Source of the DNA: Limnomonas spitsbergensis
Lineage: Eukaryota; Chlorophyta; Chlorophyceae; Chlamydomonadales
Assembly (NCBI GenBank): GCA_037349105.1
Contig: JAYJMM010000036.1
Coordinates: 1,400,001 to 1,464,000 of the forward strand
Direction: 5' to 3'
DNA: 64,000 bases
A program made the translations under genes and the position numbers. The notes below the pieces were generated by a model. The model was not told where the DNA came from. It was given only the letters and a program-made list of their open reading frames with translations, and did no database searches. This document shows, in pieces, positions 14,412 to 64,000 of this stretch. Position 1 is the stretch's first letter; every line of letters starts with the position of its first letter.

Positions 14412-17400
14412 ATGGTACTAGCGGATCTGGGGAAGAGCCTCACGAAGGCCATCTCCACGCTCGCTACTTCGGCTACGATCGACGAGAAGGTGCTGGATGG
14501 ACTCCTCAAGGAGATATGCACAGCACTGCTGCAGGCCGATGTGAACGTCAAGCAGGTGTCGGGCCTGCGGAACGGCATCAAGAAACGCGTCAACATAGAG
14601 CAGATGGCAGTTGGCCTGAATAAGCAGCGCGTGATTGAGAAAGCTGTTTTTGACGAGCTGTGCGACATGCTCGACAGCGGGGTCGACCCCAAGAAGGTCG
14701 AGCTAAAGAAGGCGAAGGACAAAACCGCGGTGGTCATGTTCGTCGGGCTGCAGGGTAGCGGCAAGACCACCACGTGCACCAAGTATGCATACTACCACAA
14801 AAAGAAAGGCTGGAAGCCGTCACTGGTCTGCGCAGTAAGTGTGCTGCCACTTAGCATCTCGGGGAGGCTCCCTCCCATGTGGTAGTGGGGGTGCCGGCAG
14901 CCATGCAGCCATGCACAAGCCTCCTTTCCATGCATCAGGACGCCATGCATGCGCCATTTGCATTATGGGCGCCATTGGTATGTAAGACCACCATGTGGGC
15001 ACCAACATGGGCAACATGAGACATTTGCATGTGGCGCCACGTGGCACCACCAACTTCTTTTGCATCGGGTTGAAAATTGGTGCATGGCTATGCTGCCTGG
15101 AAACCAAGGCTGCAGGTGTTCAAGTATATAGAGTTTTGCAATGTCACTTTGGAAATCTGGCGCCAGATGTCCTGAGTGGCATTTTTAACCCTATATACCC
15201 CAACAGCTGGCTTGCTGAAGACCCTGCCCTCCCATGGAAGGACAACATCCAGAGGGTGTAACAGCTACAAATAGAGCATTGCATGCTTGTTGCTGACAGC
15301 TTGAGCAGTCAGCGTGAACCAGAACCCGACAGCAACTGAACCAAACTAATGGGAAGCCCTAAACAAATGTATGGACTGCACATGAAGTATTGTAAACATC
15401 TCATGCATGGGTTGCACATGTGAACATCTCATACATGGGTTGCACATGCAGACAGGCTCATTCGTGGGCTGAACATGCAAATGTCTCATGCATGGACTCA
15501 AATGAAGACATCTCATGCATGGACTCAAATGAAGACATCTCATGCATGGGCTGCACATGCAGACGTCTCATGCATGGGCTACACATGGACACGTCTCATG
15601 CATGGCCTGCACATGGACAAGTCTCATGCATGGGCTGCACATGGACACGTCTCATGCATGGGCTGCGCATGGACACGTCTCATGCATGGGCGGCACATGC
15701 AGATGTCTCATGCATGGGCTGCACATGGACACGTCTCATGCATGGGCTGCGCATGGATCCACGTCTCATGCATGGGCTGCGCATGGACACGTCTCATGCA
15801 TGGACTGCAAACCAAGACATCTCATGCATGGGCTGTGAATGTAGACGTCTCATGCATGGGTGGCACATGGACACGTCTCATGGTGGGCTGCACATGTAGA
15901 TGTCTCATGCATGGGTGGCACACGCGAATGTCTCGTACATGGGTGGCACATGCATCTGTCTCATGCATGGGTGGCACATTGACACGTCTCATGCATGGGT
16001 GGCACATGCATCCGTCTCATGCATGGGTGGCACATGCATCCGTCTCATGCATAGGTGGCACATGGACACGTCTTATGCATGGGTGGCACATGCATCCGTC
16101 TCATGCGTGGGTGGCACATGGACACGTCTCATGCATTGGTGGCACATGCAGACGTCTCATACGTGGGCTGCACATGTAGATGTCTCATATATGGGCGGCA
16201 CATGCGAATGTCTGATGCATGTCACATGGACACGTTTCATTCAAGAGGTCCAAGCAAGGCTGAATTACAAATTCTAGTTGGAGAACAGTGTTCTCAGAAC
16301 ATAAACGAAGCCAACTTTCTGGCTGATAAGTCATATGCGTTTTCTGTGTTGGATGGGTAGTCAAACAAAGCATGCGCTGCACATTCAAAGACGTGTCATA
16401 TACCTCCCTGGCACTCATGCTACCCGTTCGCCGCACCGCTGCAGGACACCTTCCGCGCCGGAGCGTTTGACCAGCTTAAGCAAAACTCCACCAAGGCCCA
16501 GATCCCCTTCTATGGTAGCTACACAGAGAGCGACCCCGCTGTCATAGCGCAGCAGGGCGTGCAGCGCTTCAGAGAAGAGGGTCGCGACCTGATCATTGTG
16601 GACACCAGCGGTCGGCATAAGCAGGAGGCGGCTCTGTTCGAGGAGATGCGACAGGTGTGGGGGGGAGGTGGGAGGGGGGGAGGAAGAAGGAGGACGTGGT
16701 GCTGTTTGATTTGATGGATTTAGGAGATGCGACAGGTGGGGGGGGGAGGGAGAGGAAGAAGGAGGACGTGGTGGAGTTTGATGTGATGGATTTAGGAGAT
16801 GTGACATGTGGGGGGGGGAGGGAGGATGAACAAGGAGGACGTGGTGTCGCTTGATGTGATGGATTTAGGTGTGACAGGTGTGGGGGGGATGGGGGGGGGG
16901 GTGAAGAAGGAGGATGGAGTGCTGATTGATGTGGTGGATTTAGGAGATGTGACAGGTGAGGTGCCCCTGCTTTCTCCAACGGAGGGATTTTCTGGGCAGA
17001 GGCATCGAAGGGGAGGGGGGTATCAGCTTTTAGTATACCATCAAGTTGGATGCAGGGCTTTTTAAGGACATGCGACGGGTGCAGGTTGCAGGGCTCCATT
17101 CAGGATGGGGGCTGTTCATGGTGGGCAACAAGTACGCCCAAGCGATCCTGAGGGTGGAAGGCGTTGCCTTGAGTCCCTATTAGTCCTGTAAAATGTCCAC
17201 CCAGGCGTAGTCTCCAACTGCATCCAATGTTTCTTTTTTGGCTACGGGTCCACCTTTGAAGGTTTGCCCTGCGGCCGCCGAAGGTCCGATTAAGCCCAAA
17301 CCTGGGCCAGCCTACGACCGATGGCCAGAAATGGGGCCTCGGACCGGAGGTTTCAATGCAGCTGACATGTAGCTGAGTCACGCAAAAATTGACACTGACT

Positions 17401-20400
17401 TCATCCCCGGAGAGATGTGATTTCTGTTTCCAAGCTGCAGGCCCTTAGACCTCAACCAGAGTGTCACCACCTGCCCATGACTGCGTCCCTTGAACGCTTT
17501 GGTCTTCAGTTTCAAAGCCCTGAACCCTACACTCTTAATGCTCGATTGCCTCCAACTGTCCCTTGAACTCCAACTGTCCCTTGAACTCTTGAGATGCTGC
17601 GGCTTCTTAACCCTATACTCAATGCTTGATAAGTATTGCCCGACACTGCGTCCCTTGCACCCTGTATTTTTTTGTGGTTGCCATAGTGGTCCAGCACGAC
17701 CTCCTCATCTTCGTCATGGCTACTCACCCCATTTGCCTCCTTCTGCCTCCCTTACAACCCATTTAGGTTGCTGCTGCGGTACAACCCGACCTGGTCATCT
17801 TTGTTATGGATGGGAGTATTGGGCAGGCAGCACTGGACCAGGCCAAGGCTTTCAAGGATAGTGTGGAGGTAGGGGCCAGGGCCGTCTGTATCCACAAGCT
17901 GATAGCTTGCAGATAAATGAATATATATATACCGGTACTGGTGTGTATATATATGTATATATATCGATATATGTCGATATATATATATATATACTGGTAT
18001 GATGAATGTACATACCGGTATATGGTTGTGAAGACATTGTGAAGGAGCGGCAAAGGCCTTCTCGCGCCTTAACAACTATAGCGTGGCAATTCGTACCTTA
18101 TACAATGCAACAAAATATAGCGAAAAAATGGTCTTCCTGGTGATTTCAATCGCGGTGGATTCAAATTCGAAATTGAAATTGCCTACCCTTAAGGTTTGAC
18201 CTCAGGGTGGAACTGTGGTCATCACTCGGATGAGCACCGTTGTGCAAACAAATATGGTGGATTTTAAATTCGTATTCGACTTAATAACCCAGGGTTTGAC
18301 TGCAGAACACTTTTTCGCTGTGATCCTCACCAATATTGACATTCCGGTGCAATGCAAAAGCAGGGTGGGATCGAATCCAAATTTCACCACCATTTACAGC
18401 TGTGATCACCATGAAGATTGATTTGTGGCGAGCTTTATGGTGGTTTAGATTCAAATCAGTATACCCTTCACACAGCTGCGATCCTGACTACGATGGATAT
18501 TGTGGTGAAATCAAGAGTGGATCCAGATTCAAATTCGCCCCCTCCCCCTCCCTAATGTGACCCCCAGGTTGGAGCTGTGATAATCACTGTGATGGATATT
18601 GTGGTGAAGGAAACAGTGGATCCAGATTCAAATCCCCCCCCCCTCCCTCAATGTGACCCCAGGTTGGAGCTGTGATTTTGTGGTGAAATGAACAGTGGAT
18701 CCAGATTCAAATCCCCCCCCCCCCCTTCCCTCAATGTGACCCCAGGTTGGAGCTGTGATTTTGTGGTGAAATGAACAGTGGATCCAGATTCAAATCCCCC
18801 CCCCCTCCCTCAATGTGACCCCAGGTTGGAGCTGTGATTTTGTGGTGAAATGAACAGTGGATCCAGATTCAAATCCCCCCCCCCTCCCTCAATGTGACCC
18901 CAGGTTGGAGCTGTGATTTTGTGGTGAAATGAACAGTGGATCCAGATTCAAATCCCCCCCCCCCCCCCCCCCTCAATGTGACCCCAGGTTGGAGCTGTGA
19001 TTTTGTGGTGAAATGAACAGTGGATCCAGATTCAAATCCCCCCCCCCCTCCCTCAATGTGACCCCAGGTTGGAGCTGTGATTTTGTGGTGAAATGAACAG
19101 TGGATCCAGATTCAAATCCCCCCCCCCTCCCTCAATGTGACCCCAGGTTGGAGCTGTGATTTTGTGGTGAAATGAACAGTGGATCCAGATTCAAATCCCT
19201 CCCCCCTCCCTCAATGTGACCCCAGGTTGGAGCTGTGATTTTGTGGTGAAATGAACAGTGGATCCAGATTCAAATCCCCCCCCCCCCCCCTCCCTCAATG
19301 TGACCCCAGGTTGGAGCTGTGATCATCACCAAAATGGACGGGCATGCCAAGGGTGGAGGCGCGCTCAGTGCAGTGTCAGCCACACACTCGCCCATCATCT
19401 TCTTGGGAACAGGTGGGGTGGGGGACAGGTGGGATGAACATTTGGAAGGCTAGGGAACAGGTGGGGTGATGGATGAGGTGGTGTGGGGGTCAGGTGGGAT
19501 GAATATTTGGAAGGCTAGGGAAAGGAGTGGGGGATCATTAGGGAAGACTGGAGTGGTGGAGTGGGGGAGCCTGGGGGACCTAGTCAGGAAAACAGCCAAG
19601 TACAAAGCAGGGGGAGTTCCTGTCTGATCCTGAGCAGTGCATGCCGGATAGCAATGAGCGGGAGACCTTGTCCAGGAGTTCTATTGCTGTCTGGTATGAC
19701 AGGGGTTGGCGATCTTCCCATTGTTATCGGCAGAGTGGACCTTGTGCAACCACGGCTTGGGACCGCTCCTAGATCTGACCCAGGCCCATTCGTAGATCCG
19801 GAGCTTAATCCGCCCCTAGATTCGAAATCTGGTCGCTCCTGGATCCTTCCTGAGCATGCTTCTGGATCCAGCCCTGGCATGCTTCTGGATCCAGCCCTGG
19901 CATGTTCCTAGATCCTGCCCTGGCATGCCCCTAGATCCAGCCCTGGCATACTCCTAGATCCGGCCCATGCGCGCTCCTGGGTCTGGCACCTGGCACGCTC
20001 CTAGATCTGGCCCAGGCATGCTCCTAGATCCGGCCGAGGCTCACTCCTAGATGCGGCACCAGGCCCACTATGCGATGCGGCTTAGCCCAGTCCTGGATCC
20101 GGCCCGGGCACACACCACTAGATCAGGTCCAGCTCCACCTCTAGATCCGGTTACGACTCCCTCCTAGATCCGACCTAGGTTCACTGGATCTGGCGCCTGA
20201 CTCCTGGCGCTAACCTGCTGTATTTGCTTTAGCCAGGCAAGCACATGAACCAGTTTGAGGGCTTTGAGACCAAGCGCTTTTTCCTGGGTCTAGCCTAGGC
20301 CTGCAACAGGGTCTGGCCCAGGCCTGCTCCTGGGTCTGGCCATGCCCTAGGTTCACACCTTTATCTGGCAAAGTTCACTCATGGATCTGGCGCCTGGTTA

Positions 20401-63861: not shown

Positions 63862-64000
63862 GTAAATACAGTAACTACAGTGATCTTCTTGTCTTGGCTG
63901 CTAATGTTTTGTATGCTCCTGCTGTTGTTGCATTCGTTGCGGCTGCCAATGTGGAAGATGTTGCTGCAGTTGTTGCGGCTGCCGATGTTGTGTATGTTGT
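63862..64000. other. Glutathione synthetase intron 8, cut by the window edge
   Basis: Begins gtaaatac after the exon 8 end at 63861. Near the edge gttgttgc and gcggctgcc motifs begin to repeat. The next exon is not in the window. Confidence 0.6.

Follow-up and report, generated by a model that had tools for sequence, protein, structure and literature searches.

Introduction

Mirage minisatellites of amphioxus are tandem duplications of exon-intron boundaries, described in Adh3 and in the globin genes BflGb6 and BflGb9 (PMC3087553), and also in PGBD5 and troponin C (PMC3902484). In the passages on the first set, reverse transcription-polymerase chain reaction shows regular splicing, the repeats vary in length between alleles as a length polymorphism, and intron gain is proposed (PMC3087553). 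For C. reinhardtii and V. carteri, passages of a repeat survey report that tandem repeats reach their highest density in introns and become more frequent close to the junctions with exons (PMC3887541). Here, we describe copies of exon-intron junctions inside the introns of SRP54, glutathione synthetase (GSS) and other genes in a 64,000-nucleotide stretch of the green alga Limnomonas spitsbergensis (assembly GCA_037349105.1, contig JAYJMM010000036.1, positions 1,400,001 to 1,464,000, forward strand; hereafter the window), and in genes sampled elsewhere in the same assembly (260,226,709 bases, 124 contigs). An earlier note on this DNA, made from the letters alone, had known of no described system that matches the pattern; the amphioxus mirages, as their published passages present them, do match it (PMC3087553; PMC3902484). 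Very probably, the algal repeats are mirage-type minisatellites, and long introns lengthen by recurrent local tandem duplication that is not aimed at junctions and whose copies decay roughly neutrally. Mirage repeats are thereby extended to a distant lineage, and are frequent in the genes sampled.

Results

The window genes SRP54, uL22, ISCU, a CAMK-type kinase and GSS were modelled on the basis of homologous proteins, open frames and GT/GC-AG borders. Edges of 40 nt, taken from the exon side only, were aligned with the intron next to them, and an edge passed when its score exceeded those of all 30 dinucleotide shuffles and of every intron belonging to the other window genes. By this rule 19 of the 48 edges of the five genes pass in sense and 3/48 in antisense orientation (16/48 and 1/48 with a score floor of 24). 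An ungapped junction scan of the window (at least 24/36 matches, run without a shuffled control) yielded 56 copies, 53 of which retain GT/GC or AG. Copies are plentiful in SRP54 and GSS (Table 1, where the splice sites inside copies are called decoys); eight near-identical 3' junctions precede SRP54 exon 4, and one copy in SRP54 intron 3, at 18393, has lost its AG. When the exon-proximal sites are joined, the frames of SRP54, uL22, ISCU and GSS are uninterrupted. Kinase intron 4 holds a weaker, exon-only acceptor copy. The earlier note had named five genes as carriers of such copies: SRP54, GSS and the kinase are borne out and uL22 weakly so, its 36-bp array holding few exon bases, while DUF3054 was not found by Pfam scans of window frames that left unscanned the first 14 kb, the minus strand at 14-33 kb and 62-64 kb and the greater part of the plus strand past 59 kb, so that its absence is not shown.

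Outside the window, the sample consists of 20 gene pieces of the actin, EF and HSP70 families from the same genome. Here 22/110 edges pass in introns of at least 400 bp, 1/118 in introns of 150-400 bp and 0/62 in shorter ones, and none of 290 passes in antisense. At least one passing edge is found in 12 of these 20 pieces. Of the 25 pieces (176 introns) of the pooled set, 17 carry the repeats; the 25 represent about 23 genes, since C103 and C36:3.63 Mb each comprise two pieces of one gene. A junction copy occurs in 32/76 pooled introns of at least 400 bp and in 20/33 of at least 800 bp. The claims that large introns hold copies of their own exons and that short introns nearly lack them thus hold; the 270-bp ISCU intron shows no exon-edge copies in the edge test.

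Self-alignment of the introns defined 42 junction families, 39 of them spanning the splice site; it was run without a shuffled control, and a few families lie near the E-value cut-off (two at 4e-3). With 21 donor and 21 acceptor families, copies flank both exon sides, and they range from near-identical tandem arrays to single decayed copies (e.g. those with decoys at 24539 and 60718), both as previously described. Tandem geometry, with homology covering at least 0.6 of the repeat distance, is seen in 23/42 families, as tandem duplication predicts; these have a median distance of 99 bp and a median exon part of 33 bases. We propose that recurrent local tandem duplication of stretches mostly 60-160 bp long would add length to long introns. 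A duplicated stretch overlapping a splice junction would carry an exon stub (mostly 14-55 bases) and a splice site into the intron, the outermost copy would preserve the intact gene, and the copies would subsequently decay roughly neutrally. At the DNA level slippage or unequal exchange may be at work, and units with long exon stubs would presumably be removed by selection.

Duplication is not aimed at junctions. In the 20 window introns of at least 400 bp, the mean rate at which 30-nt segments recur in direct orientation within their intron is 0.40 when centred on junctions versus 0.39 in interiors, and in 56 such introns elsewhere the rates are 0.15 and 0.17; the intervals of the difference include zero in both samples. 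Introns longer than the 400-800-bp class show no deficit at junctions (0.379 versus 0.320 in interiors). Because junctions and interiors are duplicated about equally, junction copies are part of general local tandem duplication, and of the suggestion that introns lengthen by tandem duplication across splice junctions, the lengthening stands and the targeting of junctions is not supported. None of 248 stretches lying 60-90 bases inside exons has a copy at the threshold of the junction comparison; two weaker matches reach deeper into exons, one in uL22 exon 3 and one at actin C110 intron 5 (96 exon bases at 68%).

These rates make it improbable that splice junctions themselves set off duplication and so seed the arrays, for example through breaks coupled to transcription or splicing or through repair templated by RNA. 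Such a process would suit the striking arrays, which start at junctions, and the retention of the splice dinucleotide in 67/74 junction-reaching copies, but that retention is near the neutral expectation: when each family is represented by its most diverged junction-reaching copy, 24/29 retain the dinucleotide versus 22.3 expected from the identity of the exon part (8 of 37 families, without a junction-reaching copy, are omitted). These figures indicate neither maintenance nor removal of the copies, which lose their splice dinucleotides near-neutrally. As the exon partner hardly changes, the exon part of a copy should stay recognisable longer than its intron part, which would explain those old copies that resemble bare exon stubs.

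Copies are tied to intron length. Segments with a direct copy within 250 bp number 0/133 in introns of 60-150 bp, 17/709 and 206/1205 in the next two length classes and 922/2467 in introns of at least 800 bp, and antisense copies anywhere in the intron number 0, 0, 14 and 51 in the same four classes. Two actin genes (C110:2646122 and C116:5719933), with 371/372 residues identical and about 1.05 substitutions per fourfold site, have seven intron positions in common, corresponding to 7/8 introns of the long-intron gene. These seven introns measure 64-206 bp in the compact gene, without a duplicated segment, and 87-1947 bp in the expanded gene, where four (715, 1947, 1363 and 1222 bp) hold junction copies. 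In two HSP70 pairs with similar proteins the introns are short and nearly free of duplication, with one exception (L059 intron 5, 464 bp, with 15/22 segments duplicated, versus none in the 293 bp of L060). Most bases of long introns show no recognisable duplication (median 882 of 1222 bp), so that duplication contributes to intron growth and is not shown to explain all of it; older copies may have decayed beyond recognition.

Several observations weigh against recurrent, unaimed tandem duplication as the account of these introns. Homology falls short of the repeat distance in 19/42 families; decay can explain this, and local non-tandem copying may have acted there. Duplication of junctions lags slightly behind that of interiors in the 400-800-bp class (0.093 versus 0.160; confidence interval of the difference -0.136 to -0.003). 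The exon share of the units is below a random-breakpoint prediction (mean 0.34, n=23, with 0/20000 simulations as low), so that either placement or survival departs to some degree from randomness; this mean is approximate, because in two cases (GSS intron 5 and SRP54 intron 3) the distance does not correspond to a single unit. A low exon share would fit selection against long exon stubs, and fewer exon breakpoints would also fit. Two further HSP70-like genes outside the pooled set have no clear copy among 50 edges (8 in introns of at least 400 bp) when compared without shuffles, the best edge scoring 24 (in a 243-bp intron) and the others at most 23. Part of the rise with intron length is trivial, since short introns offer less room for copies, and the sample outside the window represents three protein families, not the whole genome.

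With motif matrices from the 176 introns, the own gene left out, the authentic site scores above every decoy in 10/27 families, and the score gap between it and the strongest decoy has a median of 0.0 bits (p=0.59) in a comparison that sets it against the best of several decoys and so somewhat favours these; selection weakening decoys relative to true sites is not supported by these figures. The inserts that decoy use would produce are a multiple of three in 25/74 cases, the chance rate, by which a preference for frame-preserving inserts was rejected. Selection keeping decoy sites is not supported by the retention of 24/29 given above. That the copies are functional, kept by selection as decoys, as alternative 5' or 3' splice sites or as regulators, is accordingly improbable. 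The best decoys do equal authentic sites in score, and counting array copies separately, 27/32 copies with less than 90% exon identity retain the dinucleotide versus 22.6 expected, but that excess shrinks once each family contributes one copy, the inserts ignore frame, and the short-intron actin paralog lacks any copies while encoding a practically identical protein.

An assembly artefact is very unlikely. Misassembly readily affects arrays of 92-95% identity that extend for about 400-840 bases, but the nearest copy is just 68-89% identical in 30/42 families, single decayed copies are present, and many contigs show the pattern, its dependence on intron length being clear. Insertion of introner-like or transposable elements is scarcely credible: a dispersed repeat seen by eye in three window introns means that mobile sequence may exist here, but flagged edges score higher against the adjacent intron than against introns of other genes, antisense copies are few, and two array units (from SRP54 intron 3 and GSS intron 7) match only their own intron in a genome-wide search, which contradicts insertion for those units and, for these two, agrees with the earlier statement that no dispersed transposon is involved. 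The search skips common words, so that these single-locus matches do not prove rarity, a further point to set against our reading.

Table 1. Genes, junction copies and decoy splice sites in the window (positions in the window; + forward, - reverse strand)
Feature	Positions	Strand	Details
SRP54 gene	14412..28982	+	9 exons: 14412-14834, 16445-16654, 17767-17868, 19310-19412, 20434-20531, 24200-24319, 25736-25882, 27447-27551, 28746-28982
SRP54 intron 2, donor copies	16676..17093	+	72-bp array 16676-16958; decoy 5' splice sites 16736, 16808, 17079
SRP54 intron 3, acceptor copies	18206..19309	+	79-bp array 18595-19323; intact decoy 3' splice sites 18206, 18568 and eight from 18663 to 19226
SRP54 intron 4, single acceptor copy	20223..20260	+	decoy 20237
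SRP54 intron 5, acceptor copies	23945..24156	+	116-bp unit; decoys 23995, 24111
SRP54 intron 6, decayed single donor copy	24517..24553	+	decoy 24539
SRP54 intron 6, acceptor copies	25413..25675	+	decoys 25427, 25571, 25653
SRP54 intron 7, donor copy	25934..26003	+	~55 exon bases; decoy 25989
SRP54 intron 7, acceptor copy	27273..27309	+	decoy 27287
uL22 gene	29498..32508	-	4 exons: 32461-32508, 32016-32282, 30896-31069, 29498-29575
uL22 intron 3, repeats	30542..30895	-	36-bp array of 5' splice site region, then copy from inside exon 3 (30542-30592)
ISCU exons	32814..33521	+	32814-33097 (start from homology alone), 33368-33521; 270-bp intron
CAMK-type kinase	39877..44663	-	exons 44333-44663, 42638-42728, 42133-42266, 41322-41466, 40723-40925, 39877-40035
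Kinase intron 5, acceptor copy	40200..40268	-	~53 exon bases; splice dinucleotide lost
GSS gene	51897..63861	+	exons 51897-51992, 54959-55063, 55787-55878, 56677-56818, 58009-58101, 60343-60483, 62831-62979, 63758-63861; extends past window
GSS intron 4, donor copies	56848..57544	+	56870, 57056, 57391 (GT lost), 57530
GSS intron 5, donor array	58087..58512	+	43-bp unit; 9 decoys after exon 5
GSS intron 5, acceptor copies	60183..60342	+	56-bp unit; 60231, 60287
GSS exon 6 end, decayed single donor copy	60616..60732	+	decoy 60718
GSS intron 6, four acceptor copies before exon 7	62430..62743	+	62444, 62555, 62637, 62721
GSS intron 7, donor array	63000..63612	+	131-bp unit; decoys 63110, 63242, 63373, 63504

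The SRP54 model has 8 introns of 1021-3668 bp and an open frame of 514 residues, and a program for spliced alignment, supplied with SRP54 of C. eustigma, reproduced all 16 hand-made junctions. Among the 120 matches listed for a 509-residue version, identity is highest with C. eustigma SRP54 (87%), which places the alga near that species, followed by named Chlamydomonas, Haematococcus and Sanguina entries (74-81%); a long chimeric Vicia entry in the same list scores equally high, yet at 56% identity. SRP54 intron 5 also contains a 2.2-kb GT-rich low-complexity array (20981-23198), and telomere-like CCCTAAA/TTTAGGG repeats lie in SRP54 and GSS introns (23626-23851 and 56819-56906). The dispersed repeat (core around CATGCATCAAATGTGATGC), seen by eye in introns of SRP54, uL22 and the kinase at about 28623-28712 (+), 29756-29855 (-) and 42833-43000 (-), is sense to each host gene and near the intron 3' end, and is possibly a mobile or introner-like element. 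The kinase span named intron 1 holds one or more further exons between the first two listed. A GC 5' splice site occurs in 9 of the 176 modelled introns, kinase intron 2 included. An NDUFA5 match at 35902-36330 on the minus strand is weak (Pfam E-value 8e-5, below the curated cut-off). CT-rich arrays at 45352-46406 resemble mirrored reverse complements of GA-rich arrays at 47920-49473, which suggests a large inverted repeat around 47 kb. Elsewhere in the assembly, two similar actin-like matches with several stops (G000:C75 near 694184 and 707075; L017 and L018), about 13 kb apart, are probably pseudogene copies.

Methods

Edges with fewer than 25 exon bases were omitted from the edge test outside the window, the ageing test (dinucleotide retention) and the motif test. 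Introns below 60 bp were omitted from the junction-interior comparison, and those below 150 bp from the self-alignment, ageing and motif tests. Loci set aside were the duplicate model C123:7769735 (L061 was retained), the actin-like L017 and L018 (with stops) and L027, and the partly masked L001-L005. In the edge test outside the window, the control with other introns had no entry in the case of L045 intron 1, the longest. The actin-related models on C36, C38 and C118 were built with distant references and have implausibly short introns and one stop, so some of their junctions may be wrong.

Discussion

Mirage repeats, earlier known from lancelets, are common in the sampled long introns of a green alga and show a route by which introns can lengthen. 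The near-constancy of the exon edge makes each copied stub something like a dated fossil. Gene finders are warned that decoys can attract misplaced exon ends.

The earlier note had also spoken of decoy sites that the spliceosome must ignore. Its premise agrees indirectly with the motif scores, in which the best decoys match authentic sites, and use of the decoys would be predicted to insert residues into conserved proteins. As the motif does not set authentic sites above the best decoys, another cue must select the exon-proximal site. Perhaps, judging from the arrangement of the copies, the simplest way for splicing to pick that site would be exon definition, in which the acceptor and donor closest to each other win: the exon-proximal site is the first donor copy transcribed and the last acceptor copy, giving the shortest exon and the longest intron, which would fit exon definition and not intron definition. 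As a tentative proposal, which we hold at somewhat less than even chances, splice-site choice may follow position and not strength, the site giving the shortest exon being taken and adjacent equal or identical sites ignored. This tolerance would allow nearly free intron growth by tandem duplication across junctions, with stubs capped because longer ones would be read as exon. Because the best decoys equal authentic sites by motif, the spliceosome's choice among near-identical sites becomes testable in living cells, and if choice is indeed positional and the sampled rate can be extrapolated to the whole genome, the alga would offer a natural experiment on exon versus intron definition with very many junctions.

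In the searches made of the open-access literature, the titles and abstract openings listed do not name exon-junction copies in algae, a limited negative. Among known systems, introners, as presented in the passages of PMC9860276, are likewise repeated sequences tied to introns and splice sites; they insert into many genes, whereas each of the two algal units searched matches one intron. In the portion of the potato RdRp report that describes intron gain by tandem genomic duplication (PMC4974935), splice signals are copied as they are here, but that duplication creates a new intron, whereas algal introns lengthen at unchanged positions, as seen in the actin pair only. The survey of C. reinhardtii and V. 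carteri deals in motif densities, with GT/AC dinucleotides abundant, and its passages on these make no mention of exon-edge copies (PMC3887541). The closest likeness is with the amphioxus mirages as the passages of PMC3087553 describe them: the algal repeats comprise an exon end and the adjoining intron (39/42 families span the splice site and 23 are tandem), 5' and 3' exon boundaries are both duplicated (21 donor and 21 acceptor families), and many, though not all, units retain AG/GT signals (67/74 in the families, 53/56 in the window scan). Unlike the mirages of those accounts, the algal repeats, known from the DNA of one assembly, belong to the green lineage, occur in 17/25 gene pieces, include many old single copies and come with a comparison of junctions and intron interiors.

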